Positions 2,977 through 26,088 of a DNA stretch of 64,000 nt are shown one piece after another. The first letter of the stretch is position 1, and each line of letters starts with the position of its first letter. A program made the translations under genes and the position numbers. The DNA is from Sphingorhabdus sp. M41 (GTDB taxonomy: Bacteria; Pseudomonadota; Alphaproteobacteria; Sphingomonadales; Sphingomonadaceae). The notes beneath the pieces are model-generated. The model made no database searches. It was not told the origin of the DNA and saw only the letters and a list, made by a program, of their open reading frames with translations. The stretch is taken from assembly GCF_001586275.1 (NCBI RefSeq), contig NZ_CP014545.1:3002501-3066500 (forward strand), in the 5' to 3' direction.

Positions 2977-3084
2977 CGCTGGCTCCTGTTTCGCTGATAA
3001 ATTTACACAAGGAAGAAAATATGTAAATAAAACTTATGATTTCTTCAGAATCAGTCGATTCAATCCATAATATTATTCCTGCTT

Positions 3085-3345
3085 CTAGCCATCCGCTGGC
3101 ACAGCATAGAAGTCACGACAGGAATTCAACTTTCCCTCTACCAGCTTATACAGGGCAAGACGTTCGCTATTGCCATCCGGGCGCTTCCATAGCCTGCCCA
3201 ACCAGGCGACATGTTCGTCGCCGGTAATATCGAGCACTTCAAAATGCATCGTCTTGTCGGACGGTTTTTTGGTCAAATGTTCGAGCAGCCGGGCAATTGC
3301 TTCAATGCCCTCTATCTGGCCGATCGCCGAATTTGCCGGAATTGC
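3085..3345 (-). pseudogene. SnoaL/NTF2-like fragment, probably decayed
   Basis: The open frame encodes a stretch like the middle and end of SnoaL/NTF2-fold proteins: SAIGQIEGIEAIARLLEHL, then HFEVLDITGDEHVAWLGRLW and a C-terminal KLNSCRDFYAVP. The usual N-terminal helix and first strands, about 35-40 residues, are missing. The frame opens directly after a TGA and has no ATG, only ATT or TTG codons. A helix-like stretch, ELIEQF, appears in another frame just upstream. This fits a small frameshifted gene that followed the metallo-beta-lactamase-like gene on the same strand. A short protein from the TTG at 3276 is possible, but it would be only 63 residues and would lack half the fold. Confidence 0.4.
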
Positions 3346-5610: not shown

Positions 5611-6435
5611 ATGCGCATATCAAAAGCCAGTGAAGCGGTGGGCGCGATTGTCGACGATGTCGATGTCACCAGCCTGAGCGAACAAGAGTTTTCTGACATC
5701 CGTCGCGCTTTTCTCGACCACGGCACATTATTCTTTCGCGACCAACAGCTCAGCCCCGACGACCATATCGCCTTTGCCGGGCGCTGGGGCGCAATCGACC
5801 TCAACCGCTTTTTCAAGCGGCGCGAGGGCTATCCGGAAATTGCCGAAGTGCTCAAGGAACCGGACCAGCAGCTCAATATCGGCGGCGGCTGGCATACCGA
5901 CCACAGCTATGACGAAGCGCCCGCGATGGGATCGATCCTCTATGCGCTGGAAATCCCGCCGAGTGGCGGCGATACATTGTTCGCCGGCATGGCGGCGGCT
6001 TATGAAGCGCTCGACCCGGCGATGAAAGAACGGATCAGCAATCTGAAGGCGCGGCACGGGAATGCGCATGTTTTCGGCGAGGAGAGCGCCTATCGTAAGG
6101 CAATCGGTGACCGTTATACCAATGCCGATCAGGCGGGTCAGACAGCCGTTCATCCGGTGGTGCTGGCCCATCCCGAAACCGGGTTGAAGGGGCTCTATGT
6201 CAATCCGGGCTTCACGCTGGAGATTGTCGATATCGATCCGGAAGAGAGCCAGACGCTGCTCCAGCAACTATATGATCATATCATGCAGGACCGCTTCCAC
6301 TATCGTCACCAGTGGCGCGAAGGCGATCTGGCGATGTGGGACAATCGGTCGACCTGGCATTATGCGATGAACGACTATCAGGGACACCGGCGCTACCTGA
6401 ACCGGATTACGATCGAAGGCGTCGCTCTCGCATAG
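5611..6435 (+). CDS. TauD/TfdA family Fe(II)/2-oxoglutarate dioxygenase
   Basis: The 274-residue protein matches the normal length of TauD/TfdA enzymes. The iron-binding HxD is in GGWHTDHSYDE near residue 94, and the distal histidine and 2-oxoglutarate-binding arginine are in WDNRSTWHYAMNDY and GHRRYLNRITIEG near the C-terminus. SGGDTLFAGMAAAYEAL is also a family block. These enzymes hydroxylate a carbon next to a leaving group, releasing for example sulfite from taurine or a phenol from 2,4-D-type ethers. The gene has a strong ribosome site (GGGGAG) and stands alone, divergent from the Tat-exported SDR. The substrate is not deducible. Confidence 0.9.
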   Translation: MRISKASEAVGAIVDDVDVTSLSEQEFSDIRRAFLDHGTLFFRDQQLSPDDHIAFAGRWGAIDLNRFFKRREGYPEIAEVLKEPDQQLNIGGGWHTDHSYDEAPAMGSILYALEIPPSGGDTLFAGMAAAYEALDPAMKERISNLKARHGNAHVFGEESAYRKAIGDRYTNADQAGQTAVHPVVLAHPETGLKGLYVNPGFTLEIVDIDPEESQTLLQQLYDHIMQDRFHYRHQWREGDLAMWDNRSTWHYAMNDYQGHRRYLNRITIEGVALA

Positions 6436-13544: not shown

Positions 13545-14429
13545 ATGGAAACCCCGATGACCCTGAACGGCCCCGCCTCGCACAGCTATTTCTCCCAGCG
13601 ACTAAAGCTCCATTATGCCGACTGGGGCAATGAGGACAAGCCGCCGCTGATCCTGCTCCACGGCGGCCGGGATCATTGCCGCAACTGGGACTGGACCGCG
13701 CAGGCGCTGCGCGATGACTGGCATATCATCTGCCCCGACGTCCGCGGTCATGGCGACAGCCAGTGGAGCACCGATGGCCATTATGCGACGATGGCGATGG
13801 TCACCGATCTGGCGCAGCTGATCCATCAGCTCGACCTGTCGCCGGTGACGATTGTCGCGCACAGCATGGGCGGCAATATCGCGCTGCGCTATACAGGCCT
13901 CTATCCCGACACGGTGCGCAAGCTGGTCGCAATCGAGGGGCTTGGCCCCAGCCCCGATATGCTCGCCGAGCGGGATAAGGTCGGTCAGGTACAACGGGTG
14001 CGTGACAGCATTGAAGAAAAGCGCAAGGCCGCCGGTCGTCAGGTCAAACGCTACCCGACATTCGAGGACGCCCTGAAACGCATGCAGGAAGCCAACCAGC
14101 ATCTCTCCGACGAGCAGGCCCGGCACCTGACCACGCACGCGGTGATCCGCAACGAGGATGGCAGCTATAGCTGGAAGTTCGATCCCTATGTGCAGCACTG
14201 GGACAGCATCGATCTGTCACAGAAGACTATTCACGAATTGTGGGGCAATATCAGCTGCCCGACCCAGCTTCATTATGGTGCCGACAGCTGGGCCAGCAAT
14301 CCGGAGAAAGACGGCCGGATGCAATATTTCGGCGACAATGTGTCGGTGAAGGAATTTGCCGATGCCGGCCACTGGCTGCACCATGACCAGTTCGCGCTGT
14401 TCGTCGAGACTTTAAACGAATTTTTGTGA
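13545..14429 (+). CDS. alpha/beta hydrolase
   Basis: The 294-residue protein is a standard single-domain alpha/beta hydrolase. The oxyanion-hole motif is LLHGGRDH near residue 40, the nucleophile elbow is AHSMGGNIAL with Ser near residue 106, and the catalytic histidine is in AGHWLHHDQ close to the C-terminus. The cap region between residues 135 and 190 is helical and charged. No signal peptide is present, so it acts in the cytosol. It is a single gene with no partner nearby. An in-frame ATG twelve bases further in (13557) could also be the start. The substrate is unknown. Confidence 0.88.
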   Translation: METPMTLNGPASHSYFSQRLKLHYADWGNEDKPPLILLHGGRDHCRNWDWTAQALRDDWHIICPDVRGHGDSQWSTDGHYATMAMVTDLAQLIHQLDLSPVTIVAHSMGGNIALRYTGLYPDTVRKLVAIEGLGPSPDMLAERDKVGQVQRVRDSIEEKRKAAGRQVKRYPTFEDALKRMQEANQHLSDEQARHLTTHAVIRNEDGSYSWKFDPYVQHWDSIDLSQKTIHELWGNISCPTQLHYGADSWASNPEKDGRMQYFGDNVSVKEFADAGHWLHHDQFALFVETLNEFL

Positions 14430-14608
14430 TTATTCGATCGATGTCTCGATCATTCCTCATGGTTACAGTGGCCTAATTTTTCTCATCGCCTGAAATCAAG
14501 TGCGCTGTCACCGCGCGTCTTTGGCTATTTCAATCAGACGTCACCGTAATTGACCTTAATTGCGTATTTGCAGCATGTTTGCAGTATAGGGTGAGGAGGC
14601 GATGAATA

Positions 14609-15169
14609 GTGAACGGCGCGATATTTTACGCAACCCGATATGGCAGCACGGCGCAATATGCCGACTGGATTTCCGATGCGACCGGGATTCCAGCGTTTGA
14701 CGCGAACAAGACTGACGCCGATCCATCCCTTTACGACTTCGTCGTCATCGGCGCCCCGGTGATTTACCACAAGCTACCAATCCGGCACTGGGTCATGCAA
14801 AAAATGCTGTCCTTGGAAACCAGACCTGTCTTGTTCTTCACCGTTTCCGGCGCCCCGGCAGGGGCAAAGCTCGACCGCTGGATCGCCAACAGCCTGCCCG
14901 AGGCCCTGATTCAGCAAATGACCCATTTTGCCCTCCGTGGCCGTCAAAATCCCAGAGACCTCTCCTGGTTTGATCGCATCATGCTCGTCATCGGTGGTCT
15001 GACAAACCCGGATCGCGGCGCAGGCCGAGAGGAGTTGAAGGGCTTTGACTTTATGGACAAGTCTAGCATTGAGCCGATGGTACAGGCGATTCAGCACCTG
15101 CAATCGCGTGATGCGGTACGGCTGGAGATTGATAATGATCAACCACGAGAGATAAGAGGACAGATATGA
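14609..15169 (+). CDS. flavodoxin-fold protein, HemG-like
   Basis: This 186-residue protein starts with GTG, supported by a strong ribosome site (GAGGAGG, nine bases upstream). The FMN phosphate loop is ATRYGSTAQYADWI. The sequences DFVVIGAPVIYHKLPIRHW and VLFFTVSGAPAG follow the pattern of HemG-type (oxygen-independent protoporphyrinogen oxidase) flavodoxins. The last five bases lead into the cytochrome b561 gene with an ATGA overlap, so the two are co-translated. HemG normally passes electrons to the membrane quinone pool. A partnership in which this flavoprotein exchanges electrons with the cytochrome is an inference. It could be a general flavodoxin instead of a heme-synthesis enzyme. Confidence 0.75.
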   Translation: MNGAIFYATRYGSTAQYADWISDATGIPAFDANKTDADPSLYDFVVIGAPVIYHKLPIRHWVMQKMLSLETRPVLFFTVSGAPAGAKLDRWIANSLPEALIQQMTHFALRGRQNPRDLSWFDRIMLVIGGLTNPDRGAGREELKGFDFMDKSSIEPMVQAIQHLQSRDAVRLEIDNDQPREIRGQI

Positions 15170-15714
15170 CTGCCACCCAAGCCCATGCGCGCTACGCCCG
15201 CCTTTCGATTTTTCTCCACTGGGCGATGCTGCTGCTGATCACGGCAGTCTATAGCTGCATCCTGTTGCGCGAATCATTTCCCCGGGGCAGCGACCTGCGC
15301 GAAGGCCTTAAGATGTGGCATTTCATGCTCGGTCTGTCGGTGCTGGCGCTGGTGATCATCCGGATCGTCGCCCGGCTGCTGACCACCAAGCCGCCGATCA
15401 AGCCCGAACCGCCTGCGTGGCAAATGCTGTTGGCCAAGGTAACGCATCTTGCGCTTTATGCTTTCATGCTGGCAATGCCGATTGCCGGCTGGCTGATCCT
15501 CAGCAGCGCTGACAAGACCATCCCATTCTTCGGTCTCGAGCTCCCCGCGCTGGTGGCACCGGACAAGGCGCTGGCCGAACAAATCGAGGAGTTGCACGAA
15601 ACGGTAGGAACCATCGGGTATTTTCTGATCGGACTGCACGCGCTGGCGGCACTGTTCCATCATTATGTGGTCAAGGATAATACGCTCAAGCGGATGCTTC
15701 CCGGCAAGCGCTAG
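15166..15714 (+). CDS. cytochrome b561 family membrane protein
   Basis: The 182-residue protein has four membrane helices (about residues 12-32, 48-68, 85-106 and 142-162) and the histidines expected to hold two b-type hemes. They occur in SIFLHWAMLL, KMWHFMLGLS, KVTHLALYAF and LIGLHALAALFHHYV. It belongs to the YodB/CybB family that transfers electrons between quinol and other carriers such as superoxide. The start overlaps the end of the flavodoxin gene by four bases. The coupling suggests that the flavodoxin and this cytochrome form a small redox chain. Confidence 0.88.
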   Translation: MTATQAHARYARLSIFLHWAMLLLITAVYSCILLRESFPRGSDLREGLKMWHFMLGLSVLALVIIRIVARLLTTKPPIKPEPPAWQMLLAKVTHLALYAFMLAMPIAGWLILSSADKTIPFFGLELPALVAPDKALAEQIEELHETVGTIGYFLIGLHALAALFHHYVVKDNTLKRMLPGKR

Positions 15715-15756
15715 GCGTGGCAGCAAGACAACGATTTCTGTCTGATCTGCTAGAGT

Positions 15757-17331
15757 TCAGGAAATCATCCCCCGCAATGTAACAATCCTGTCCGCCTCTT
15801 CCGCCGGCTTGTCCTTGCGGATGCGGTGGATGCGCGGGAAGCGCATGGCGAGGCCGGATTTGTGGCGGCCGCTTTCGTGGATGGAATCGAACGCGACTTC
15901 CAGCACCAGCGATTTCTTCACCTCGCGGACCGGCCCGAAGCGGTTCAACGTGTTCTGGCGGACGAAGCGGTCGAGCCATTTCAGCTCTTCGTCGGTGAAA
16001 CCGGAATAGGCCTTGCCGACCGGCAACAGTTCGCCATCCTCGGTCCAGCAGCCAAATGTATAGTCGGAATAGAAGGACGCCCGCCGCCCGTTGCCGCGCT
16101 GCGCGTACATCATCACGCAGTCGGCGTTCAGCGGGTCGCGTTTCCATTTATACCAGTGACCGGTAACCCGGCCGGCCAGATAGGGGCTCTCCCTCCGCTT
16201 CAGCATCACGCCCTCGATCGCCGCGTCGCGAGCCCCGGCGCGCATGACTTCCAGCGCGGCGAAATCGTCGACATCGACCACCGCCGACAGATCGAAATGA
16301 TCCGCGTTGAGTGTGGGGACAAAGCGCTCGAGCCGCTGGCGCCGCTCGTGCCAGGGCGACAGGCGCAGGTCGTCTTCCCCGTCCATCAGCAGATCATAGA
16401 CCCGGACAAAGGCGGGAAACTCCTGCCGCATTTTCTTCGAGACGGTCTTGCGCCCCAGGCGCTTCTGCAGCGCATTGAAACTTGCCGCCTCGCCGCCCTG
16501 ATCGGTGCCGCGAACCAGCAGTTCGCCGTCGATCACACCGTCACGGTCGAATGCCTCGACTATATCGGGAAAAGACGCGCTGATATCATCGCCGCCGCGG
16601 CTGTAGAGCCGGGTTTCACCGCCGAGATGCACCGCCTGCACGCGGATGCCGTCCCATTTCCACTCAACCGCATATTGCCCAAGATCGAGACTGTCGCCTT
16701 CAAATGGATGGGAAAGCATGAACGGACGAAAGAAAGGCGTCGCCGAAAGATCCGGGCGATCACCACCCTGCTCCGCCCATTTAAACAGCGCCTCATAAGG
16801 CGGGTCGAGCGCGTGCCAGAGCTCCTCGACATCGTCGAGCGCCACGTCAAAGGCCTGCGCGAAAGCGGTCTTGGCTAACCGTGCCGAGACACCGACCCGC
16901 ATCCCGCCGACCGCCAGCTTGAGCATTGCATAGCGGCTGTTGCTATCCATGCTGTCGAGCAGGTCCGCGACGATATCGGGAGCGGTCGCGCGATTGGCGG
17001 CTGACAGCGCCTGCACCACTTCGTCGATGGTCGGGTCGCTCTGCTCCCGCCCCTCCGCTTCCGGCCAGACCAGCGCCACGGTTTCGGCGGTATCACCGAC
17101 ATGATGGCGCGACAGGCGGAACAGTTCCGGATCGATCCGCGTTCCGGCCAGATTGCGGATGGTGGCGGATTTGACCGCCGGAAAGTCGAGGCTGTCGGTC
17201 AGCGCCGCCAGTGCCCAGCCGCGATCGGGGTCGGGCGTCTCGCGCAAATTGGTTGAGATCGCCGCCAGCTTGGCGTTGCGCGATCTGGTGTAGATCAGAC
17301 TGTCGATCAGGGCGGCAAAGCGGCGCATCAA
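15757..17331 (-). CDS. ATP-dependent DNA ligase of the ligase-exonuclease repair module
   Basis: The 524-residue enzyme has an N-terminal DNA-binding region (1-210), the adenylation motif KxDG in VEWKWDGIRVQ near residue 228, and later ligase motifs including GELLVRG, EGVMLKRRESPYLAGR and WYKWKRDPL. The fold order and length match the bacterial family called cisplatin damage response ligase (LigB/TIGR04120 group). Its first codons overlap the exonuclease gene by four bases. In other bacteria this pair occurs with a DEXH helicase and the PdeM endonuclease; neither is within this window. It probably seals breaks during repair of crosslinked or damaged DNA. Confidence 0.92.
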   Translation of the reverse strand: MMRRFAALIDSLIYTRSRNAKLAAISTNLRETPDPDRGWALAALTDSLDFPAVKSATIRNLAGTRIDPELFRLSRHHVGDTAETVALVWPEAEGREQSDPTIDEVVQALSAANRATAPDIVADLLDSMDSNSRYAMLKLAVGGMRVGVSARLAKTAFAQAFDVALDDVEELWHALDPPYEALFKWAEQGGDRPDLSATPFFRPFMLSHPFEGDSLDLGQYAVEWKWDGIRVQAVHLGGETRLYSRGGDDISASFPDIVEAFDRDGVIDGELLVRGTDQGGEAASFNALQKRLGRKTVSKKMRQEFPAFVRVYDLLMDGEDDLRLSPWHERRQRLERFVPTLNADHFDLSAVVDVDDFAALEVMRAGARDAAIEGVMLKRRESPYLAGRVTGHWYKWKRDPLNADCVMMYAQRGNGRRASFYSDYTFGCWTEDGELLPVGKAYSGFTDEELKWLDRFVRQNTLNRFGPVREVKKSLVLEVAFDSIHESGRHKSGLAMRFPRIHRIRKDKPAEEADRIVTLRGMIS

Positions 17332-18329
17332 CCGTCATCCCCTTCTTCGCGTCCGACCATCGCCAGCGCCCGCGCCCTGATCTGGTGCAGCTCGCACCAG
17401 CGCAGCAGGCCGTCCTCGCTGCCATGGGTGATCCAGGTTTCCTTCGGCGCCAGTTCGCGGATGGTTTCGGTCAGCTCGTCCCAGTCGGCATGATCGGAGA
17501 TGACCAGAGGAATCTCGACCCCGCGCTGCCGCGCCCGCCCGCGCACCCGCATCCAGCCGGACGCCATGGCGGTCACGGGATTGGGCAGCCGGCGGCTCCA
17601 TTTGTCGGTCAGCGCCGAGGGCGGAGCGATGATGATCTGGCCGCGCATCTCGTCCTTCGGCGTGTCCATCACCAGCCGCAATTCGCCCAGCGACACGCCA
17701 AGCTCTTCATAAAGTTCACACATCCGGACCTGCGCCCCGTGCAAATAGATCGGTTTGTCCCAACCGGCCCGGCGCAGCTCGGCAATCACCCGCTGCGCCT
17801 TGCCCAGCGCATAGGCGCCGATCAATATGCTGCTGTCCGGCTCGGCTTCCAGCCGCGCGAAGATCTTGGCGATCTCGCCCGCAATCGGGGGATGCTGGAA
17901 CACCGGCAAACCAAAGGTCGCTTCGGTAATGAATATATCGCACGGCACCAGCTCGAACGGCGCGCAGGTCGGGTCGGGGCGGCGCTTGTAATCGCCGGTG
18001 ACGACCACCCGCTCGCCCTGATATTCCATCAGCACCTGCGCCGAGCCCAGCACATGGCCGGCCGAATGCAGGCTGAACCGCACGCCGCCGCGCTCGAACC
18101 CCTCGCCATAAGCAATCGGCGTCCCCGCCTCGGTCCCATAGCGCAAGCCCATGATCGCCAGCGTCTCCGGCGTCGCCCAGACATCGCCATGACCACCGCG
18201 CGCGTGATCGGCATGGCCATGGGTCACCACCGCATTTTCCTTCGACACGGACGGATCGATCCAGACTTCGGCAGGCCGCACATAAATGCCCTGCGGATGG
18301 GGTTCGATCCAGTGTTTCGCTTTTGCCAT
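17328..18329 (-). CDS. ligase-associated DNA exonuclease (MBL fold)
   Basis: This 333-residue protein is a metallo-beta-lactamase/beta-CASP nuclease. The metal motif is VVTHGHADHARGG (HxHxDH) near residue 38, followed by GDYKRRPDPTCAPFE, then TEATFGLPVF, LISDHADW and WITHGSEDG near the C-terminus, as in the ligase-associated exonuclease family (TIGR04122). The ATG at 18329 is chosen over an upstream in-frame start because MAKAKHWIEPHPQGIYV matches family N-termini. It is the first gene of a two-gene operon with the ligase. A palindromic repeat element lies just upstream (18396-18549). Confidence 0.9.
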   Translation of the reverse strand: MAKAKHWIEPHPQGIYVRPAEVWIDPSVSKENAVVTHGHADHARGGHGDVWATPETLAIMGLRYGTEAGTPIAYGEGFERGGVRFSLHSAGHVLGSAQVLMEYQGERVVVTGDYKRRPDPTCAPFELVPCDIFITEATFGLPVFQHPPIAGEIAKIFARLEAEPDSSILIGAYALGKAQRVIAELRRAGWDKPIYLHGAQVRMCELYEELGVSLGELRLVMDTPKDEMRGQIIIAPPSALTDKWSRRLPNPVTAMASGWMRVRGRARQRGVEIPLVISDHADWDELTETIRELAPKETWITHGSEDGLLRWCELHQIRARALAMVGREEGDDG

Positions 18330-18395
18330 GGTGTAAAAGCGTATTGGGTCGGGAAAGGTTCCGGTCAAGGGGAAGGGGGGAAGCAGGCCGCAATC

Positions 18396-18549
18396 AGCCC
18401 CTCCTCTTCAGAGGAGGGGTTGGGGTGGTGGCGATGCGCCAGCATCGCTCGCGCCAGCGAACATTTCTGGCCCCGACAGCAACGGAATCGGAAGGAAGGC
18501 TTTCCGACGAGAGAAACCACCCCAACCCCTCCTTTAAAAAGGAGGGGCT
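18396..18549. repeat. palindromic repeat element, family A copy 1
   Basis: This 154-base element is bounded by hairpins. The left end is CCCCTCCTCTTCAGAGGAGG and the right end is CCCCTCCTTTAAAAAGGAGG, and the inner GGGGTGGTGGCGA and ACCACCCCAACCCC pair across the element. Copies with the same ends occur at 20681-20840 and, in frame, within dnaE2 at 26605-26718. No reading frame is seen, so this resembles a non-autonomous mobile element or REP-type repeat. Confidence 0.8.
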
Positions 18550-18581
18550 TGAAAGAAGTGCACTGTCACCGCGATAAATAA

Positions 18582-18992
18582 TTACAAACCCTCGTTTCTA
18601 TGGGCCAGCTTAGTAATATCAGGGAGTTTTAACCACCGACTGAGGGCGTTATCAGGCATGGAATCTCTTGCAATATTCCAATATTGTTCTTCATCTGAAT
18701 CGTTTTTTTCAATTAACGAAACATACAGCTGGCAATAGGCTTTAACATACCGAACATTTTCGTCCATACCAGCAAGTTCGGGTTTGCTCAGATGATCAAT
18801 AACGATATTGAACTGCTCTTTTGCACAGCCGCTTTTGCCATCTAAGATCAACAAAGTTCCCAAAAACGCACGATGCATCGAACTGAGTTCGGGAATTTTA
18901 CCAAGCGAGTTCAACGCAGCGTTGACGTTTCCCTTATCACAAAAGGATTGAGCTCTCGTCCAGTGAAATGCTGTCGCAATTTTCTTTTTCAT
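18582..18992 (-). CDS. hypothetical TPR-like protein
   Basis: The 136-residue protein is helical and cytosolic, beginning MKKKIATAFHWTRAQSFCDK. Helix pairs such as GNVNAALNSLGKIPEL and CAKEQFNIVIDHL look like degenerate tetratricopeptide repeats, but no clear TPR signature is met. Base composition is much lower in GC than in the neighbouring genes, with frequent AAA, ATA and TTA codons, so the gene may have arrived by transfer. It lies between a repeat element and an AT-rich intergenic region. No function can be assigned. Confidence 0.6.
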   Translation of the reverse strand: MKKKIATAFHWTRAQSFCDKGNVNAALNSLGKIPELSSMHRAFLGTLLILDGKSGCAKEQFNIVIDHLSKPELAGMDENVRYVKAYCQLYVSLIEKNDSDEEQYWNIARDSMPDNALSRWLKLPDITKLAHRNEGL

Positions 18993-19353
18993 CAAAAGCC
19001 TATTAAATCACCTTTTCGCCAAGCGTCAAAGAATTGAGGTGACTTTGAAATTTGGGAATCTCGACACCAACCCTACCCGCCCCAAACAACAAACCCCCGC
19101 TTTCCTACATCACCCCAACAATGCTAAAACCCGAATATGAACAAAACACCTCATATCCGCCCCAAAACCGGCCAATGGCCGCTTTTATCAACCAGCAGAT
19201 TTTCAATTCTATAACCCTGTAAAGTGTGTAAAGTTTGAAATATAATTTCGCACTCCGCCTCCCAGCATGTGACCCCAATGTGATATTCTCCCTAGACCAA
19301 TCACATTGCAATGTGATAGTCGATTCGCAACATCACATTGAAAAGGCAAGTCC
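18993..19353. other. AT-rich intergenic region before the HTH-RibBX gene
   Basis: These 361 bases carry no convincing gene. The left half is AT-rich, with a run rich in A and C. The right half contains the four ATCACATTG-type half-sites described separately and a ribosome site AAAAGG ahead of the ATG at 19354. A TATAAT at about 19239 could be part of a promoter. I see no FMN riboswitch core. Confidence 0.55.
19276..19340. promoter_or_regulatory. four-half-site operator array upstream of HTH-RibBX
   Basis: The half-site CAATGTGAT occurs at 19276-19284 and 19309-19317, and its reverse complement ATCACATTG at 19300-19308 and 19332-19340. The middle two form a perfect 18-bp palindrome, ATCACATTGCAATGTGAT. 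The four sites also read as two tandem inverted repeats with 15- and 14-base spacers, 32-33 bases apart (three helical turns). The array ends 13 bases before the start codon, as expected for a repressor that controls this gene. Confidence 0.7.
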
Positions 19354-20670
19354 ATGAGCAAGCTTCTTATAGATCAACTGATCGAACTGATCGATTCCGG
19401 CGAAGAAACCCGTGCGGGCCTCGCCCGTGCTGCCGGCCTCCATGCCAACAGCCTGCGCAGCCTGGGGCAGGATGACTGGAACCCGACGGCGGAAACGCTG
19501 GGCAAGCTGGAGGCTTATCTGGCGCGCGGCGGTAACAGTGTCATGGCGACGGCGGAAGAGATTATCAACGAGGCGCGCAACGGCCGCATGTATATCCTGG
19601 TCGACGACGAGGATCGCGAGAATGAAGGCGACCTGATCATCCCGGCGCAGATGGCGACCCCCGATGCGATCAATTTCATGGCCAAATATGGCCGCGGGCT
19701 GATCTGCCTGGCGATGTCGCGCGACCGGGTCGAGGAACTCGGCCTCGACATGATGAGCGCGAACAATCGCGGTGCCTATGAAACCGCCTTCACCACCTCG
19801 ATCGAGGCGCGCGACGGCGTCACCACCGGGATCAGCGCCGCCGACCGCGCGCGCACGGTCGCCGTGGCAATCGACCGGACCAAAGGCAAGGACGAGATTG
19901 TCACCCCCGGCCATGTCTTCCCCTTGCAGGCCCGCAACGGCGGTGTGCTGGTCCGCGCCGGCCATACCGAAGCGGCGGTCGATGTGTCGCGGCTGGCTGG
20001 CCTCAATCCGGCTGGCGTGATCTGCGAGATCATGAAGGATGACGGCGAGATGGCGCGGCTCGACGATCTGATCGAATTTGCCCAGCATCACGGCATGAGA
20101 ATTGGCACGATCCGCGACCTGATCGCCTATCGCCTGCGCCACGACCATCTGACCGAGCGCCGCGAAGAAGCGCGCTTCACCAGCCAATGGGGCGGAGAAT
20201 GGAATGCAATGACATTCTATAATAGCGCAACCGAGAGCGAGCAGATCGTCCTGCAGAAGGGTCATATCGATCCGGACAAGCCAACATTGGTGCGGATGCA
20301 TGCGACGGCGATCTTTCCCGACCTGTTCGGACAGGAAACCGGCCGCGCCAATATGATCCAGGAATCGATGAAGATCATCGGGGAAGAAGGCGCCGGCATC
20401 ATCGTATTCATCAGCCCGCGGGTACCCGACCTCTATTCGCGGCAGGTCCGCACGCTCGGCGGCGGCAAGCCAGCGCCAATGGATCAGCTGCGTGACTATG
20501 GTGTCGGCGCGCAGATTCTCAGCGAACTGGGCGTGCATGATATGGAACTGCTGACCAATACCAGCCATGATATGGTCGGGCTGGACGCTTACGGACTACG
20601 GATTGTCGGTCAGCGCGCTGTACCGGCCGAGAATGCCGGCAAAGACAGCAAGCAGTTGGAGACGGCATAG
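19354..20670 (+). CDS. ribBX: HTH-RibBX: helix-turn-helix/3,4-dihydroxy-2-butanone 4-phosphate synthase fusion
   Basis: The 438-residue protein has three parts. Residues 1-60 ([33 protein letters not shown]) look like an XRE-type DNA-binding domain. Residues 65-270 are a full DHBP synthase, which converts ribulose 5-phosphate to the four-carbon riboflavin precursor; [23 protein letters not shown] and [14 protein letters not shown] are its motifs. Residues 275-425 resemble GTP cyclohydrolase II but lack the zinc-binding cysteines, as in the RibBX variants described in Proteobacteria, so GTP cyclohydrolase activity is unlikely. A four-half-site array lies directly upstream. The gene precedes ribH with a repeat between them. 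An autoregulated enzyme-repressor is inferred. Confidence 0.85.
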
Positions 20671-20680
20671 CCATCAACAC

Positions 20681-20840
20681 CCCCTCCTCTTCAGAGGAGG
20701 GGATCAAGGGGTGGTGGCGATGCGCAAGCATCGCTCGCGTAAGCGACCAACCATGGTGCCGCCGGAAATGAATGGAAAAACGAAGACCTGGTCTTTGACG
20801 AGAGAAACCACCCCAACCCCTCCTTTGAAAAGGAGGGGCT
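20681..20840. repeat. palindromic repeat element, family A copy 2
   Basis: This 160-base copy shares the end hairpins (CCCCTCCTCTTCAGAGGAGG on the left, CCCCTCCTTTGAAAAGGAGG on the right) and the GGTGGTGGCGATGCG / GAGAAACCACCCC inner parts with the copy at 18396. It sits between ribBX and ribH, so any transcript that runs through would carry two strong hairpins that could modulate ribH expression. Confidence 0.8.
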
Positions 20841-20863
20841 CTAGAAACAGAAAGACACATAAA

Positions 20864-21286
20864 ATGGCAAAATTCCTGATCGTCGAAGCGCGTTTTTACG
20901 ACCATCTCAACGACATGCTGATCGAGGGTGCGACCGAGGCGCTGAAAGCAGCGGGCCACGAACATGAGCTCCTCACCGTACCCGGTGCGCTGGAAATTCC
21001 CGGTGCTATCTCCATGGCGATCGACAGCGATCTCTATGATGGCTTTGTCGCGATCGGCGTCGTGATCCGCGGCGAAACCTATCATTTCGAGATTGTTGCC
21101 GGCGAAAGCGCCCGCGGGCTCATGGCCCTGTCAATGGATGGCGCAGCGATCGGCAATGGCATCATTACCGTCGAAAACGAAGAACAGGCGCTGGCCCGTG
21201 CCGACAAGACCCGCAAGAACAAGGGCGGCGAGGCCGCTCAGGCAGCGATTGCAATGTATGAATTGGCTTTGAAGTTTACGAACTGA
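20864..21286 (+). CDS. ribH: 6,7-dimethyl-8-ribityllumazine synthase
   Basis: The 140-residue enzyme catalyses the penultimate step of riboflavin synthesis, joining 5-amino-6-ribitylaminouracil with the DHBP made by Rib[16 protein letters not shown] contains the conserved PGA(F/L)E(I/L)P block, and [18 protein letters not shown] contains the catalytic histidine region. The later [18 protein letters not shown] is also typical. The ATG at 20864 is chosen because earlier in-frame codons lie within the repeat element. It forms a locus with ribBX. A 10-bp hairpin follows the stop codon. Confidence 0.93.
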
Positions 21287-21293
21287 TGCGGCA

Positions 21294-21317
21294 GCGGGCA
21301 CGATCACTCGTGCCCGC
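21294..21317. terminator. putative terminator hairpin after ribH
   Basis: GCGGGCACGA and TCGTGCCCGC form a perfect 10-bp stem with a 4-base loop, 8 bases after the ribH stop and before the convergent gene's stop. No T-run follows on the plus strand, so it may act with Rho or simply separate the two convergent units. Confidence 0.5.
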
Positions 21318-21338
21318 GACCACTATAGACAGAAGGCG

Positions 21339-21860
21339 TTATTGTGTGCCGGCGATTGCCGCTTTGAATTCGTCTTCGGTCATCGTGATGGAAACCTCGC
21401 CATCGGCCTGAGCCATGAAGGCAGCGACGGGCAATTTTACGGCCTGGCCGCCATGATCGACGGTCACATATTCGGCATCTTTCGCCTCAATGGTACCAAT
21501 CACCGCAGCTCCGGTTACGGATTTGACTTCGGTACCCGGCGTCAGGCTGGCCAGCAATTGCGCCTTGGCGTCGGCAGCCGCTTTTTCTATCGCTGCATCC
21601 AGATCAGCCTTCGTCATCATGATCGACAGGCCAGTGTCTGTTTTCGCGAAGGCATTGGTCGCAAGCGCAGCCTTGTTCTTGCCGGTATCCACGACAACTG
21701 CGCCATCGCTTACCGAATCCACTGTACCAACGGCATCACCATTGGGACCGACAACCTTCATACCAACCTGGGCTTCGACAGCCGGAGCGGCTTCTTGTGC
21801 CATGGCCGGTGTCGCGGCGAGCAATGCTGCGCCTGTCATGAGGGTTAGAAAATTCTTCAT
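21339..21860 (-). CDS. secreted protein with two PRC-barrel-like repeats
   Basis: The 173-residue protein has a signal peptide (MKNFLTLMTGAALLAATPAM, cleaved near AMA-QE) and a mature part built from two similar units of about 60 residues. The first runs GMKVVGPNGDAVGTVDSV to MTKADLDAAI, the second GTEVKSVTGAAVIGTIEAKD to MTEDEFKAAI. Each has a small beta-barrel pattern like PRC-barrel domains plus a short acidic helix. It is probably periplasmic. It stands alone, convergent with ribH. No enzymatic motif is seen and the function is unknown. Confidence 0.7.
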   Translation of the reverse strand: MKNFLTLMTGAALLAATPAMAQEAAPAVEAQVGMKVVGPNGDAVGTVDSVSDGAVVVDTGKNKAALATNAFAKTDTGLSIMMTKADLDAAIEKAAADAKAQLLASLTPGTEVKSVTGAAVIGTIEAKDAEYVTVDHGGQAVKLPVAAFMAQADGEVSITMTEDEFKAAIAGTQ

Positions 21861-22000
21861 ATTTTATTCCTTAAAATTATAAAAATCGCATTATCCAATA
21901 CAGGCTGATCGCTAAAAAACGGCGGCCAGCTTTGTTAAGGCGATTGAGGCAGGTTGAGCCATGGGCAGGACAAAAGGCGAGTGCGCCGCGATCGGCCACA

Positions 22001-22026
22001 AAAGGCCGGCTCCGCGAGAGCCGGCC
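22001..22026 (-). terminator. Rho-independent terminator of the DJ-1/PfpI gene
   Basis: On the minus strand GGCCGGCTC and GAGCCGGCC pair in a 9-bp stem with a 5-base loop, followed by TTTTGT. It lies 23 bases after the stop codon of the gene at 22049-22615. Confidence 0.75.
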
Positions 22027-22048
22027 CCTGCGTCAATCCCCGGACCGA

Positions 22049-22615
22049 TCAGGCCGCTTTTTGTGTCCGCTTGTGGAGACCTTCCCGAACCTCCTCGATG
22101 ATCTTGGCGCTGAACGCATCCAGATCACCGGGATCGCGGGAGGTGATCAGGCCGTTGTCGACCACTACTTCGCTATCCTCGAACCTGGCCCCGGCATTGA
22201 TCAGATCGGTCTTGATCGATTTATAGCCAGTGACATTGCGCCCTTGCACCAGATCCGCCTCGATCAGCAGCCATGGGGCATGACAGATGGCGGCAATCGG
22301 TTTGCCAGCGTTGAAAAAGGCTTTCACGAAGTCGACTGCCTTGTCTTCCGCCCGCAATATGTCCGGGTTCATCTGTCCGCCGGGCAGGACCAGCGCGTCG
22401 AAATCGCTTTCGCTGGCCTTGTCCAAAGTCATGTCGACCGCGATGCTCTCGCCCCAGTCTTTCTCGTCCCAGCTTTTGATCGAGCCGGATTCCAGCGACA
22501 CGATGGTGATCTCGGCACCCGCCTCACTAAGTTGTTTCCGTGGTTCGAAAAGCTCCGATTTCTCAAAACCGTCCGTCGCCAGGATTGCTATTTTTGCGTT
22601 TGAAATGTTCGTCAT
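22049..22615 (-). CDS. DJ-1/PfpI family protein (YhbO-like)
   Basis: The 188-residue protein is a class I glutamine amidotransferase-like member of the DJ-1/PfpI group. The nucleophile cysteine is in AAICHAPWLL near residue 109, and the conserved glutamate is in LATDGFEKSELFEP near residue 17. SRDPGDLDAFSAKI closes the domain, as in YhbO/PfpI proteins that counter glyoxal and other carbonyl stress. The start at 22615 is preceded by AAAGGA. A GGAAC-N17-CGTA promoter lies upstream, matching the general stress sigma factor consensus, and it faces dps, which has a similar promoter. Confidence 0.9.
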   Translation of the reverse strand: MTNISNAKIAILATDGFEKSELFEPRKQLSEAGAEITIVSLESGSIKSWDEKDWGESIAVDMTLDKASESDFDALVLPGGQMNPDILRAEDKAVDFVKAFFNAGKPIAAICHAPWLLIEADLVQGRNVTGYKSIKTDLINAGARFEDSEVVVDNGLITSRDPGDLDAFSAKIIEEVREGLHKRTQKAA

Positions 22616-22650
22616 TTCTGTCGTCCTTTCGTTGGGGGTTACAACAAGTC

Positions 22651-22676
22651 TACGCAGCGGCGAGAGAATTGGTTCC
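22651..22676 (-). promoter_or_regulatory. EcfG-type promoter of the DJ-1/PfpI gene
   Basis: On the minus strand GGAAC (22672-22676) and CGTA (22651-22654) are separated by 17 bases. The alphaproteobacterial general stress promoter is GGAAC-N16/17-CGTT, so there is one mismatch. The implied start lies about 30 bases before the ATG. Confidence 0.5.
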
Positions 22677-22799
22677 GCTAAAATTGAAAGCCGGTGCCGG
22701 TGCTTCTTCCCCTTTCCTGCCTTCCCTGCTGGCTGCCGGATATTTCTGGCGAGCGGGCTGGTGACGCTCGTTTGGCGTGGCCTGAACGATGGCCCGCAA

Positions 22800-22824
22800 G
22801 GAACCAAATGAAGGTCGACGCGTA
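22800..22824 (+). promoter_or_regulatory. EcfG-type promoter of dps
   Basis: GGAAC (22800-22804) and CGTA (22821-22824) are 16 bases apart, with one mismatch to the EcfG consensus. It lies about 60 bases upstream of the dps start and mirrors the promoter of the divergent DJ-1/PfpI gene. Confidence 0.45.
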
Positions 22825-22886
22825 ATCATTCTCAGGAACCGCGCTCCGCCAGTTCGTCGAGCGCATCAGAGAGAAAGGAAGACCAT

Positions 22887-23375
22887 ATGACTATTCAAAC
22901 TGGAGATCTTCGCGAAATGAAGACCGACATTAAAAAGGTGGACCGGGCCGAAATGGCCGAGAAACTGGGGAAAGCCCTGGCGTCCAGCTATGTGCTCTAT
23001 CATAAGACCCAGTCGGTTCACTGGAATGTTACCGGCCCTCAGTTTCTTGGTATCCACAAGCTGACCGAAGGCCAGTATGAAGACCTTGCCGCATCAATCG
23101 ATGAAATCGCCGAAAGGATTCGGGCTCTTGGCGCGAAGACGCCGGTTGGCCTTTCCACCTATATCGAGAATAGCGCGATCGAAGACAAAGTGGAATGCGG
23201 CGATGTCAAAGCCATGCTCAAGCAGCTGTCAGGCGATGCGATCACCGTGGCCAACCAGATGCGGGAATTTGTAAAAACCGCCGAAGAGGCCGACGATGTT
23301 TTTACCGCGGATCTGCTGACCGCACGGATCGGCGTGCTGGAAGAATCATCATGGATGCTGTCGGCCAGCATCTAG
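22887..23375 (+). CDS. dps: Dps family ferritin-like protein
   Basis: The 162-residue protein is a four-helix Dps. The ferroxidase ligands are expected in VHWNVTGPQFLGIHKLTEGQ and YEDLAASIDEIAERIRALG (His, His, Asp and Glu pattern), and TPVGLSTYIENSAI follows as in other Dps sequences. Dps oxidises Fe(II) with peroxide, stores the iron and protects DNA in dodecamers. The N-terminus (MTIQTGDLREMKTDIKKVD) is a moderately charged tail. It is followed closely by a 41-residue membrane protein gene and has an EcfG-like promoter, so general stress induction is likely. Confidence 0.93.
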   Translation: MTIQTGDLREMKTDIKKVDRAEMAEKLGKALASSYVLYHKTQSVHWNVTGPQFLGIHKLTEGQYEDLAASIDEIAERIRALGAKTPVGLSTYIENSAIEDKVECGDVKAMLKQLSGDAITVANQMREFVKTAEEADDVFTADLLTARIGVLEESSWMLSASI

Positions 23376-23421
23376 CCAGCGCGCAATTCATCCCCGGCAA
23401 ATATAAAATCAGGAACATTCT

Positions 23422-23547
23422 ATGAAAAAACAGTTGGACAAGACCAGCGCCCGTCAGGGCTTTACCACCCGCCACATGATCATCGTGCTGGGCCTATCAA
23501 CCCTGTTCGCGATCGTAGCGCTAGCCGCTGTCACCGGCTTTTTCTAA
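23422..23547 (+). CDS. 41-residue single-pass membrane protein
   Basis: This small frame, read MKKQLDKTSARQGFTTRHMI and then a hydrophobic stretch from IVLGLS to AAVTGFF, gives a basic N-terminus and one membrane helix of about 22 residues. It starts 47 bases after dps, and a Rho-independent terminator follows 30 bases after its stop, so dps and this gene form one unit. The positive N-terminus suggests an N-in orientation. There is no purine-rich ribosome site immediately upstream except AGGAAC. The role is unknown; a stress-induced membrane peptide is an inference. Confidence 0.65.
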   Translation: MKKQLDKTSARQGFTTRHMIIVLGLSTLFAIVALAAVTGFF

Positions 23548-23577
23548 CCGCGATCCCACGCGTTACCAAGTGCGCCT

Positions 23578-23613
23578 GCCCGCTCCTGCCTCGCGCCGGG
23601 GCGGGCCTTTTTC
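23578..23613 (+). terminator. Rho-independent terminator after dps and the small membrane protein
   Basis: GCCCGCTCC and GGGGCGGGC pair with one mismatch around a GC-rich loop and are followed by CTTTTTCT. It ends the dps unit before the SOS-controlled operon. Confidence 0.75.
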
Positions 23614-23729
23614 TAGCCCTCATTTCCCCGCATTATCCTGTTGTCCGGCACTTCTAGTGAACAATTCTCTACGCAGAGATTCTCGCAGCCGTGGAATCAC
23701 TTGACCCTGCAACGTTCTTCTATAATTTA

Positions 23730-23744
23730 GAACAAATCATGAAC
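23730..23744. promoter_or_regulatory. LexA (SOS) box of imuA-imuB-dnaE2
   Basis: GAAC-AAATCAT-GAAC is the GAAC-N7-GAAC direct repeat recognised by alphaproteobacterial LexA. It overlaps the imuA ATG (23739-23741). A TATAAT lies at 23721-23726 and TTGACC at 23701-23706; that spacer is short (14), but the box would cover the transcription start. Confidence 0.85.
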
Positions 23745-24644
23745 AATATCGATTCGGATTCGGGGCAGGCTTTCAGGTCTCCGCCGGCCAACCCCTCTGC
23801 TGTGCCTCCGGCAACACCGGCAAAAGCTTCTGTCTTGCGGGCGCGTCTCGCCAAGATATTGGCGGCCTCCGGCGTAAAGCCGGCGGAGGATGACGGTATG
23901 CCGTCCCACTTCAGCTTTGGCGTCGACAGGATTGATGCGGCCTTGCGCGGCAATGCCGGAGTGGATGGCCTGCCGCGCGCGGCGCTGCATGAACTGCACG
24001 CGGCAAGCAAGGATGACCGGACCAGTGCAGCGGCGATGGCGCTGCTGATGGCGCAGCGCTGTCAGGATGACCGACCGATATTGTGGATCAGCGAAAGCGG
24101 CGAGGCCAGACGGCAGGGACGGCTCTATCCGCCGGGGCTGGCGGAACTGGGAATTGATCCGGACAATATCATCCATGTCGATGCGCCGGACAGTATCGCG
24201 GCACTGCGCGCAGCGGCCGACGGCCTGCGGTCTTCGGCCATGGGTGCGGTGATTATCGAATTGTCGGGCAAGAGGCCCAAAGGTCTCGACCTGACCGCCA
24301 CAAGGCGCCTGTCGCTGTCAGCGCAAAAATCGGGCGTTCTCAGCCTGTGCCTGCGCACCGGCAGCGATGCAGAAAATCCCTTGCCGACCGCTGCCTTCAG
24401 TCGCTGGTCAGTGGCCGCTGCGCCTTCCATCGCGCTGGAGGCCAATGCTCCGGGCCATCCTGCTTTCGATATCAAATTGCTGCGTCATCGCAGCGGTCTT
24501 TACGGGCTGAGCGCCCGACTGGAGTGGAACCGTGACGATCAAGTCTTCCGCGAGCAACAGAGCGAGCAGAGAGCGCCGGACACTGGCTCTGTCCCTGCCC
24601 TGGCTGCCGTCCGAGCGGATCATCAGGGCACACGGGCCGCCTGA
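23739..24644 (+). CDS. imuA: ImuA, SOS mutagenesis cassette protein
   Basis: The 301-residue protein is the RecA/SulA-like ImuA of the ImuA-ImuB-DnaE2 mutasome. FSFGVDRIDAALRGNAGVDG and RAALHELHAASKDD resemble the RecA-type core around the Walker region, and DRPILWISESGEARRQGRLY and LRHRSGLYGLSARLEWNRD are family blocks. It has no recombinase activity in known cases. The ATG at 23739 sits within the LexA box; a GTG 48 bases upstream is possible, but it would place the box in coding sequence. Its end overlaps imuB by 113 bases. The operon supplies error-prone translesion synthesis after DNA damage. Confidence 0.88.
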   Translation: MNNIDSDSGQAFRSPPANPSAVPPATPAKASVLRARLAKILAASGVKPAEDDGMPSHFSFGVDRIDAALRGNAGVDGLPRAALHELHAASKDDRTSAAAMALLMAQRCQDDRPILWISESGEARRQGRLYPPGLAELGIDPDNIIHVDAPDSIAALRAAADGLRSSAMGAVIIELSGKRPKGLDLTATRRLSLSAQKSGVLSLCLRTGSDAENPLPTAAFSRWSVAAAPSIALEANAPGHPAFDIKLLRHRSGLYGLSARLEWNRDDQVFREQQSEQRAPDTGSVPALAAVRADHQGTRAA

Positions 24645-26088
24645 CCATCCCTTTGCGCTGACCGAGAAAATCCGCGGCGCGATGGTGATCATGGCGGCGG
24701 ACCGGCAGGCGGTGTCTTTGGGCCTGGGTCCCGGCATGAAGCTCGCCGACGCGCGGGCGCGGGTGCCCGACCTGCTCGCCTTTGACCATCAGCCGCTGGC
24801 CGATGCGGATCTGCTGTCGCGGCTGGCGGAAGCTTGCGAGCGCTATACGCCGATGGTGGCGGTAGAGCCGCCTTATGCCTTGATCCTCGACATCACCGGT
24901 GCGGCGCATCTGCACGGCAATGAGGAAAGGCTGGCGCAGGATGCCGAGGACCGGCTCGATGCGGTCGGCTATAGCGCCTGCTGGGCGCTGGCCGGAACCG
25001 CCGACGCGGCGCTGGCACTGGCGCGGCACGGTCTGAAGGAAGGTGCGGAGGCGCAGCTGCCAGTGTCGGCGCTGGCCATGGACGCAAAGACCCACCAGTC
25101 GCTGGAACGGGCCGGGCTCTATCATATTGGCGATCTGGCCGAACGGCCGCGCGCCAATCTGGCGGCGCGGTTCGGGATGGAGCTAACGGTGCGGCTGGAC
25201 CGGATTCTCGGACTGGAAGATCGGCCGATCGACCCGCTGCGCCGGATTGGCAATGTGGTCACCGAGCGCCGCTTTGCCGAGCCTTTGACCCATATTGATG
25301 CTGCGCTGACATGCCTGTCCGAACTGTTCGCGGAAGCCTCCGAACGGCTCAACGAGCGCGGCCAGGGCGCGCGGATGATCCGGATGATGCTGTTCCGCTG
25401 CGATGGCGATGTCGCGCGGCTCGGTCTGGAGACGGGCACGCCGACCCGCGATGCAGCCCTTTTCCAACGCCTGCTGCGCGAACGGATCGAAGCGCTCAAC
25501 GACGAACTCAATCCGGGCTTCGGCTATGATCTGATCCGGCTGAGCATTGTCGCGTCGGAAGCGCTGGCCCCGCAGCAGTTGCGGCTCGAGGGCGGCGAGG
25601 ACCGGCGCGGCGATGAAGTCGCTCTGGTCAGCCAATTGAGCACAAGGCTGGGCCGCGACCGGGTGCAGAAATTTGCCCCCGCCAACAGCCATATTCCCGA
25701 ACAGGGCCTGCTCGCCCTGCCCGCGCTCAACGCCCCCGCACCCGTCCCGTGGAAAGCAGAGTCTCCCGACAATCCGCCTATGCGCCCTTTGCACATGTTC
25801 GACCCGCCGCAGCGCGTGCAGGTGATTGCCGAAGTCCCCGACGGCCCGCCCTATCGCTTCACCTGGCGGCGCAGGACCCATCAGGTGATCCGCTATGAAG
25901 GGCCGGAGCGGATTGCCTCGGAATGGTGGCAACGCAAGGACGGTCAACAGCCCGGCAGGGGCGGACTGACCCGCGACTATTATCGCGTCGAGGATGCCCG
26001 CGGCCGGCGCTACTGGCTGTTCCGCCACGGGCTTTACGGCGAGGAGAAAGCGAACCCGGACTGGTATGTGCATGGGCTGTTTGCTTGA
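24532..26088 (+). CDS. imuB: ImuB, inactive Y-family polymerase homologue
   Basis: The 518-residue protein begins with GTG within imuA (113-base overlap, other frame). The opening RTLALSLPWLPSERIIR resembles the start of the Y-family palm, but the usual catalytic DID/DE residues are absent, as is typical of ImuB; VVAVEPPYALILDITGA-type sequence stands where the SxDE motif should be. LSLPWLPSE, LGPGMKLADARARVPDL and the little-finger region follow, then a C-terminal tail with PYRFTWRRRTHQVI and GPERIASEWW. In known systems ImuB is the hub that binds DnaE2 and the beta clamp. A repeat element separates it from dnaE2. Confidence 0.9.
   Translation: MTIKSSASNRASRERRTLALSLPWLPSERIIRAHGPPDHPFALTEKIRGAMVIMAADRQAVSLGLGPGMKLADARARVPDLLAFDHQPLADADLLSRLAEACERYTPMVAVEPPYALILDITGAAHLHGNEERLAQDAEDRLDAVGYSACWALAGTADAALALARHGLKEGAEAQLPVSALAMDAKTHQSLERAGLYHIGDLAERPRANLAARFGMELTVRLDRILGLEDRPIDPLRRIGNVVTERRFAEPLTHIDAALTCLSELFAEASERLNERGQGARMIRMMLFRCDGDVARLGLETGTPTRDAALFQRLLRERIEALNDELNPGFGYDLIRLSIVASEALAPQQLRLEGGEDRRGDEVALVSQLSTRLGRDRVQKFAPANSHIPEQGLLALPALNAPAPVPWKAESPDNPPMRPLHMFDPPQRVQVIAEVPDGPPYRFTWRRRTHQVIRYEGPERIASEWWQRKDGQQPGRGGLTRDYYRVEDARGRRYWLFRHGLYGEEKANPDWYVHGLFA

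Follow-up and report, generated by a model that had tools for sequence, protein, structure and literature searches.

The window analysed here is a stretch of 64,000 nucleotides from the genome of Sphingorhabdus sp. M41. An intact open reading frame on its plus strand (19354-20670) encodes a protein of 438 amino acids made up of a helix-turn-helix (HTH)-like domain, a DHBP synthase domain and a degenerate GTP-cyclohydrolase-II-like domain. The initial annotation had read this layout, with an HTH-like domain at residues 1-60 and a cysteine-less cyclohydrolase-like part, from the letters alone, and the matches to PF00926 and PF00925 and the positions of the cysteines confirm it. The gene and the features around it are as follows.

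19276-19284, minus strand: upstream half-site CAATGTGAT, the right half of a degenerate palindrome (exact match)
19293-19322, plus strand: proposed promoter TAGACC / TAGTCG with its spacer across the palindrome (weak; placed by position from relatives)
19300-19317, no strand: main operator, the perfect palindrome ATCACATTGCAATGTGAT (exact match; held-out matrix score 31.5 for row L004, the locus of the window)
19332-19340, plus strand: downstream half-site ATCACATTG, at 32 bp from the palindrome's left half (exact match)
19341-19346, plus strand: purine-rich AAAAGG, the likely Shine-Dalgarno sequence of the window's lineage (sequence and motif)
19354-19533, plus strand: Cro-like/XRE HTH domain, residues 1-60 (homologue, profile and tree comparisons)
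19555-20130, plus strand: DHBP synthase (RibB) domain, residues 68-259 (PF00926, E 2.5e-82)
20158-20613, plus strand: degenerate GTP cyclohydrolase II-like (X) domain without cysteine, residues 269-420 (PF00925, E 6.4e-30)
20864-21286, plus strand: ribH (lumazine synthase), the next gene on the same strand (PF00885, E 1.1e-43)

The DHBP synthase part matches TIGR00506 above its cut-off, an 11-residue DHBP synthase motif falls in alignment columns conserved at 90% or more, and by sequence the domain is intact. The only cysteines of the protein are at positions 118 and 224, and a second PF00925 match in the genome (E 1.6e-60) is a separate RibA with the cysteine motif SECLTGDVLGSLKCDCG. Since the C-terminal domain has no cysteine while a separate RibA carries the motif, the enzyme part appears to be of the RibBX kind, with cyclohydrolase activity predicted to be lost, and the sequence thus supports what had been proposed for it. 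RibBX is described as a RibBA variant without GTP cyclohydrolase II activity in which zinc-binding residues are missing (PMC10012899). Upstream of the gene, an open reading frame on the minus strand (18582-18995) matches no Pfam family and is not a recognizable divergent CI-like gene. Two copies of a repeated element of about 150 bp lie upstream of ribB (18395-18559) and between ribB and ribH (20678-20850); its ends, CCCCTCCTC...GAGGAGGGG, form hairpins, and it looks like a small mobile repeat. With hairpin-forming repeats between the two genes, ribB and ribH may or may not be transcribed together.

In front of the gene, exact copies of the half-site ATCACATTG start at 19276 (-), 19300 (+), 19309 (-) and 19332 (+). 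A fifth exact copy in the 64-kb window lies at 48825, hence four of the five fall within 65 bp. The initial annotation had described four half-sites 32-33 bp apart, the last ending 13 bp before the start codon; the number and the distance to the ATG at 19354 stand, whereas the spacing holds for copies of the same orientation only (33 and 32 bp, about three helical turns), starts of neighbouring copies being 24, 9 and 23 bp apart. The two middle copies abut to form the perfect 18-bp palindrome ATCACATTGCAATGTGAT, to which the upstream half-site stands in the same register as the second half-site does in many relatives; the downstream half-site is also found in a relative of the same genus (L005). 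The palindrome occurs once in the 3.34-Mb genome and, when up to three mismatches are allowed, at two other places with three mismatches each, and no larger regulon was found in this genome at up to three mismatches of the full palindrome.

The window's own N-terminus matches no Pfam HTH family. HTH_3 gives a match at E ≤1 (best 1.5e-5) in 12 of the 18 aligned homologues, among which the window row is counted, and phrog_8, annotated as transcriptional regulator, gives one at E ≤0.1 in 14 of them; furthermore, a profile of the domain matches XRE, SinR and HipB chains among solved structures (E 0.0008-0.004). The domain is judged from these matches to be homologous to the XRE/Cro HTH. The predicted models of the HTH are fair (mean pLDDT about 82), Foldseek gave no match at 0.001 and a weak best one (E 0.2), and in neither AlphaFold model does the recognition segment take the form of a helix.

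Of 119 Sphingomonadaceae genomes searched, 117 gave a match, and from among the matches listed we used 124 ribB loci in 115 genomes; G010 and G090 (each at E about 1e-5) were left out, as were other partial or lone-ribB matches, three pieces from G012 included. The HTH is present in 88 of these loci and absent from 36, eight of the latter being paralogs in genomes that also bear an HTH-ribB. To score the operator, a matrix was trained on half of the HTH-bearing loci and applied to the other half, with a threshold of 8 that 2.5% of shuffled upstream regions reach. The held-out matrix found the operator before 86 of 88 HTH-fused genes and none of the 36 HTH-less ones. The two misses were due to wrongly chosen start codons and scored 33.1 and 18.0 when scanned again, so that the operator ATCACATNNNNATGTGAT precedes every HTH-fused ribB (88/88) and no HTH-less ribB (0/36), the latter scoring at most 6.6 in the widest re-scan. 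The half-sites are therefore kept in the relatives that carry the HTH, a check that had been proposed for this locus. A position-blind search of the 119 genomes for TCACATNNNNATGTGA yielded 50 sites in 48 genomes, 46 of which lie, by coordinates, within about 100 bp before an HTH-ribB; the reversed pattern, used as a control, gave none in any listed genome.

Operator and HTH also change together. On a tree of the enzyme part, which is a quick tree with long branches and an outgroup that is not a single clade, the HTH label changes 10 times, with at least four of the changes forced by supported branches. In the four independent supported pairs the operator changes along with the HTH (on average in 3.9 of the 4) and in no case in the opposite direction, counts in which the two mis-started loci were scored as operator-less and with which a sign test on four pairs cannot reach 0.05. 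From joint presence and joint absence we therefore argue that operator and HTH serve each other. The recognition helix, GLHxN[ST]LR, and the WNP motif are invariant in all 101 aligned sequences, a set that holds some duplicates and counts the window's own sequence twice; with the helix almost invariant, a search for covariation between helix and operator within the ribB set has no power.

The architecture of the promoter region was counted in the 86 loci of the automatic operator call. In 60 of them the palindrome is proximal, at no more than 20 bp from the ATG, and in the other 26 it is distal; in 50 of the 60 proximal loci the operator starts 29-31 bp before the ATG. A second half-site in the 30-33 bp register was hit 39 times in the proximal and 15 times in the distal set. 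In 48 of the 60 proximal loci a TTG begins 3-8 bp ahead of the operator, whereas three control positions gave counts of 8, 8 and 2 out of 60. This placement would put a -35 box just before the operator, a -10 box at its end and the transcription start near the ATG. The operator thus probably overlaps the promoter directly before the ATG in these 60 relatives. Shine-Dalgarno-like motifs were noted for 12 of the 60 genes with a proximal palindrome, for 9 of the 26 with a distal one and for 20 of the 36 without HTH. The window's genus is unlike these relatives in that its palindrome ends 36 bp before the ATG, with the extra half-site and AAAAGG in between; as a consensus scan of 19150-19400 gave no promoter, the one proposed at the window's operator takes its position from the relatives.

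The closest free-standing relatives of the HTH found are small Cro-like proteins of phages or prophages, seven of which adjoin a divergent CI-like gene; the initial annotation had not drawn this link to phages. The window's N-terminus itself gave no match at E ≤1 in the phage collection, and the prophage Cro of genome G017, used as query, matched Pseudanabaena phage Pan3 (E 3e-9) and, weakly, five records of Bacillus phages. A class-wide profile search matched 123 of 385 genomes at E ≤0.001, most of the listed matches being weak; 30 loci were taken from it and 26 inspected, and only L308 and L310 were used further. In G328, which belongs to another family of the class, there are five Cro-like profile matches (L311 and four other places), the best at L311 (E 5e-11).

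The G017 prophage Cro, of 68 amino acids (L236:5712-5918; the same gene occurs in IMG/VR contig L243), is divergent from a CI-like gene starting at 5627 with a Cro/C1-type HTH and an S24 peptidase domain, and a YqaJ viral recombinase is encoded nearby. The interval between the two genes holds a pair of ribB-type palindromes spaced by 31 bp, and the one closer to cro ends 12 bp before the start codon of that gene; operator pair and geometry are the same as at ribB. Another pair with a spacing of 31 bp is found 2.8 kb away. Eight other homologues, in phages or in loci that resemble prophages (L237, L242, which is Pan3, L244-L247, L280 and L308), carry palindromes built on the same 7+4+7 frame, and in all eight one of the two best palindromes ends 9-16 bp before an in-frame ATG, which in L245 and L247 is one of several possible starts, in L308 holds for the second-best palindrome, and in L247 and L280 was chosen among equally good palindromes elsewhere by breaking ties towards 11 bp from the ATG. 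Taken singly, these promoter palindromes have P values from 0.002 to 0.73 and several are not significant alone, so the evidence rests on the common frame and not on each case. The divergent gene was scanned in six loci (L237, L242, L244-L247) and has HTH_26 or HTH_3 in all and S24 in five. In Pan3 the Cro-like open reading frame (3001-3189, plus strand) is unannotated and is overlapped only by hypothetical proteins on the opposite strand.

The half-sites of the phage genes vary with the recognition helix. AGCATAT-like half-sites go with the helices HRNTLN, HHNTLL or HRNTLY (L242, L244, L237), CGCAT types with DTTLR (L245, L280, L308), AATGCAC with ITTLR (L246) and GTCGCAA with EGILR (L247). 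R35 is common to helices with different half-sites, and therefore no simple one-residue code is shown. In a tree of the domain (46 rows) the ribB sequences form one clade (88/83), the G017 prophage Cro adjoins it (96/78) and the other phage Cro proteins fall outside; the alignment has 60 columns, the key supports are moderate and the bootstrap is not settled.

We consider it highly probable that the gene encodes an enzyme that is at the same time an autorepressor, its DNA-binding module and operator being derived from a phage immunity switch. That HTH-RibB would repress its own gene is well supported by comparison, namely by the conservation of the operator, its complete co-occurrence with the HTH in the examined loci, their joint loss, the single palindrome in the genome, its position before the ATG, preceded in most relatives by a -35-like TTG, and the phage half-sites that vary with the helix; the enzyme-autorepressor proposed in the initial annotation thus gains substance. 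The weak fold matches, the recognition segment that is not modelled as a helix and the lack of a consensus promoter at the window's own operator count against this reading. The Cro-like HTH would bind the palindrome ATCACATNNNNATGTGAT as a dimer, and a second RibB dimer may join cooperatively on the adjacent half-operator, at a distance of some three helical turns, so that a tetramer could assemble. Bound HTH-RibB would block the promoter of its own gene, and RibB would in this way limit its own synthesis. As no other such palindrome was found in the genome (full palindrome, up to three mismatches), the target appears to be its own gene and perhaps ribH. In the simplest working model the level of repression is set by the concentration of the protein, as for Cro, presumably with no ligand involved. 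With regard to its history, HTH and operator look as if they had been captured together from a virus, as one module stemming from a temperate phage's cro gene and operator region. Capture by ribB would be the simplest account, with fusion to ribBX early in Sphingomonadaceae and several later losses together with the operator.

A reading that adds to autorepression and does not exclude it has HTH-RibB respond to a metabolite. Binding of FMN, riboflavin or ribulose 5-phosphate to the catalytic or the degenerate C-terminal domain would alter the affinity for DNA and make the protein a feedback-regulated trigger enzyme. The enzyme and DNA-binding parts in one chain would allow such coupling, and in Shewanella the X domain is reported to control the activity of RibB through a mechanism not yet known (PMC10012899). 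However, the X domain has lost its cysteines, it is also present in HTH-less genes, and it is not clearly better conserved where the HTH is present, the median identity at matched enzyme identity being 0.468 with and 0.454 without HTH. Sensing of flavin through the degenerate C-terminal domain, which had been suggested from the letters, accordingly finds no support in these comparisons. Tuning by substrate or flavin is possible, and we hold a metabolite-sensing autorepressor to be a tentative and rather doubtful extension of the model.

We regard it as unlikely, and as clearly less likely than the sensing of a metabolite, that the transfer went the opposite way and a phage acquired HTH and operator from ribB. 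An operator common to ribB and one prophage, and a domain alignment of no more than 60 columns, would suit such a course; yet the prophage Cro stands outside the ribB clade with the other phage Cro proteins further out (88/83, 96/78), and phage proteins of the Cro-like type show several half-sites where ribB shows one. The module more probably passed from phage to ribB.

That the palindrome is the site of a regulator acting in trans, XRE/CI-like or CRP/FNR-like, with the HTH of RibB doing something else, is very improbable. The half-site resembles the TGTGA/TCACA boxes of CRP-type sites, but the boxes of the palindrome stand in the reverse order of these. Moreover, none of the 36 HTH-less loci has the operator, which goes along when the HTH changes independently on the tree; the genome holds the palindrome a single time, and homologous Cro-like genes have operators in the same frame.

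Scarcely credible is an action of the repeats as RNA, two tandem 5'-leader hairpins controlling translation or transcription: the repeats of the window can fold as two 9-bp hairpins (z -1.89), but 10 of 200 shuffled sequences reach a fold that is as good or better, many of the second sites are lone half-sites unable to pair, there is no Rfam match at the operator, and the operator lies close before the ATG in 60 relatives, 48 of them with a -35-like TTG, a position that belongs to the promoter and not to the transcript. An RNA element was rejected on the comparison with shuffles, the promoter position and the Rfam result. As had been noted from the letters, no FMN riboswitch is found: there is none among four sub-threshold Rfam matches in 14000-26000, and none (RF00050) in the window's genome or the 119 genomes, in a search whose filters may lose weak matches and which found the riboswitch in 7 of 14 control genomes. 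Since the HTH-less relatives also have no FMN riboswitch, the HTH is not simply a substitute for it; with a riboswitch in none of the 119 genomes, the comparison of the HTH as its stand-in was uninformative.

As regards known systems, HTH-RibB resembles RibBX of Shewanella, Aeromonas and Bradyrhizobium in its DHBP synthase, degenerate cyclohydrolase-like domain and separate RibA (PMC10012899), and differs in adding an N-terminal DNA-binding domain with a cognate operator, which the available part of that report does not mention for RibBX. RbkR, an archaeal HTH-riboflavin kinase regulator, is likewise a riboflavin-pathway enzyme doubling as a DNA-binding regulator (PMC8305020). It differs in being archaeal and in its enzyme domain; a riboflavin kinase domain is not found in the window's protein, in which DHBP synthase and the cyclohydrolase-II-like domain are the only matches at E ≤1.

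The Cro/CI immunity regions of the G017 prophage, Pan3 and the IMG/VR contigs L244-L247 have in common with ribB a homologous small HTH and 18-bp palindromes directly before the start codon, and have as a feature of their own the divergent CI-like gene (HTH_26 and/or S24). Cro is a standalone protein in a phage switch, whereas the window's HTH is a domain of a 438-amino-acid metabolic enzyme. PutA, BirA and NadR are trigger enzymes with fused DNA-binding domains that repress their own or pathway genes and sense a ligand or substrate. The repression proposed for HTH-RibB is alike, but its regulatory part would be a phage-related module with its own operator, and nothing points to a ligand.

Neither the HTH-RibB fusion nor its operator was described in the literature searched, most subscription papers lying beyond that search. 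RibBX and RbkR are already known, and what is new would be an enzyme-repressor fusion whose regulatory half comes, on the simplest view, from a phage switch. This offers a concrete, testable control of a riboflavin gene in a family in whose 119 searched genomes no FMN riboswitch was found, and suggests that a phage repressor and its operator may become the built-in thermostat of a metabolic enzyme. Furthermore, the natural pairs of helix and half-site could be of use in deciphering how Cro-like proteins recognize DNA, and an operator common to phage and host raises the question of cross-talk between phage and metabolism.

The four sites of the position-blind search away from HTH-ribB may be due to chance, as about six palindromes are expected in the 119 genomes (a rough estimate, assuming 62% G+C), except for the prophage one, which has a partner 31 bp away. 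An off-target palindrome in G104 (G104:C10) sits inside an open reading frame. A strong palindrome of the ribB type (score 29.3) lies at L172:1429-1446 in G103, about 1.5 kb from ribB and beyond ribH and an aldo/keto reductase gene; it is maybe a second target, maybe chance.

Because the enzyme and some phages still have one operator in common, the two may cross-talk. In its full form, with one half of a phage switch (cro and its operator pair) taken over entire by a vitamin gene and serving as its thermostat across most of the family, and with cross-regulation between HTH-RibB and phages, this is a long shot. If it were true, HTH-RibB could repress incoming phages, an immunity conferred by an enzyme, and phage Cro could shut down riboflavin synthesis of the host. 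The evidence that fits it is tiny. G017, the host of the prophage with the ribB-type Cro operator, has HTH-less ribB genes only (L213, L240), and in G101 palindromes of the ribB type lie before a terminase large-subunit gene (L238:3185-3317); the HTH-ribB of G101 itself (L160) has a similar operator, and host-phage cross-talk is possible there.

A Cro-like domain is also fused to the N-terminus of CoaBC (PF02441 and PF04127) at L278 (G147) and L279 (G191). These are two of 29 genomes covered by a search of that family, and CoaBC is matched in 28 of the 29. No significant palindrome was found at either locus (P 0.97 and 0.29). The presence of such a domain on CoaBC in two genomes suggests that capture of this kind may recur in cofactor genes.
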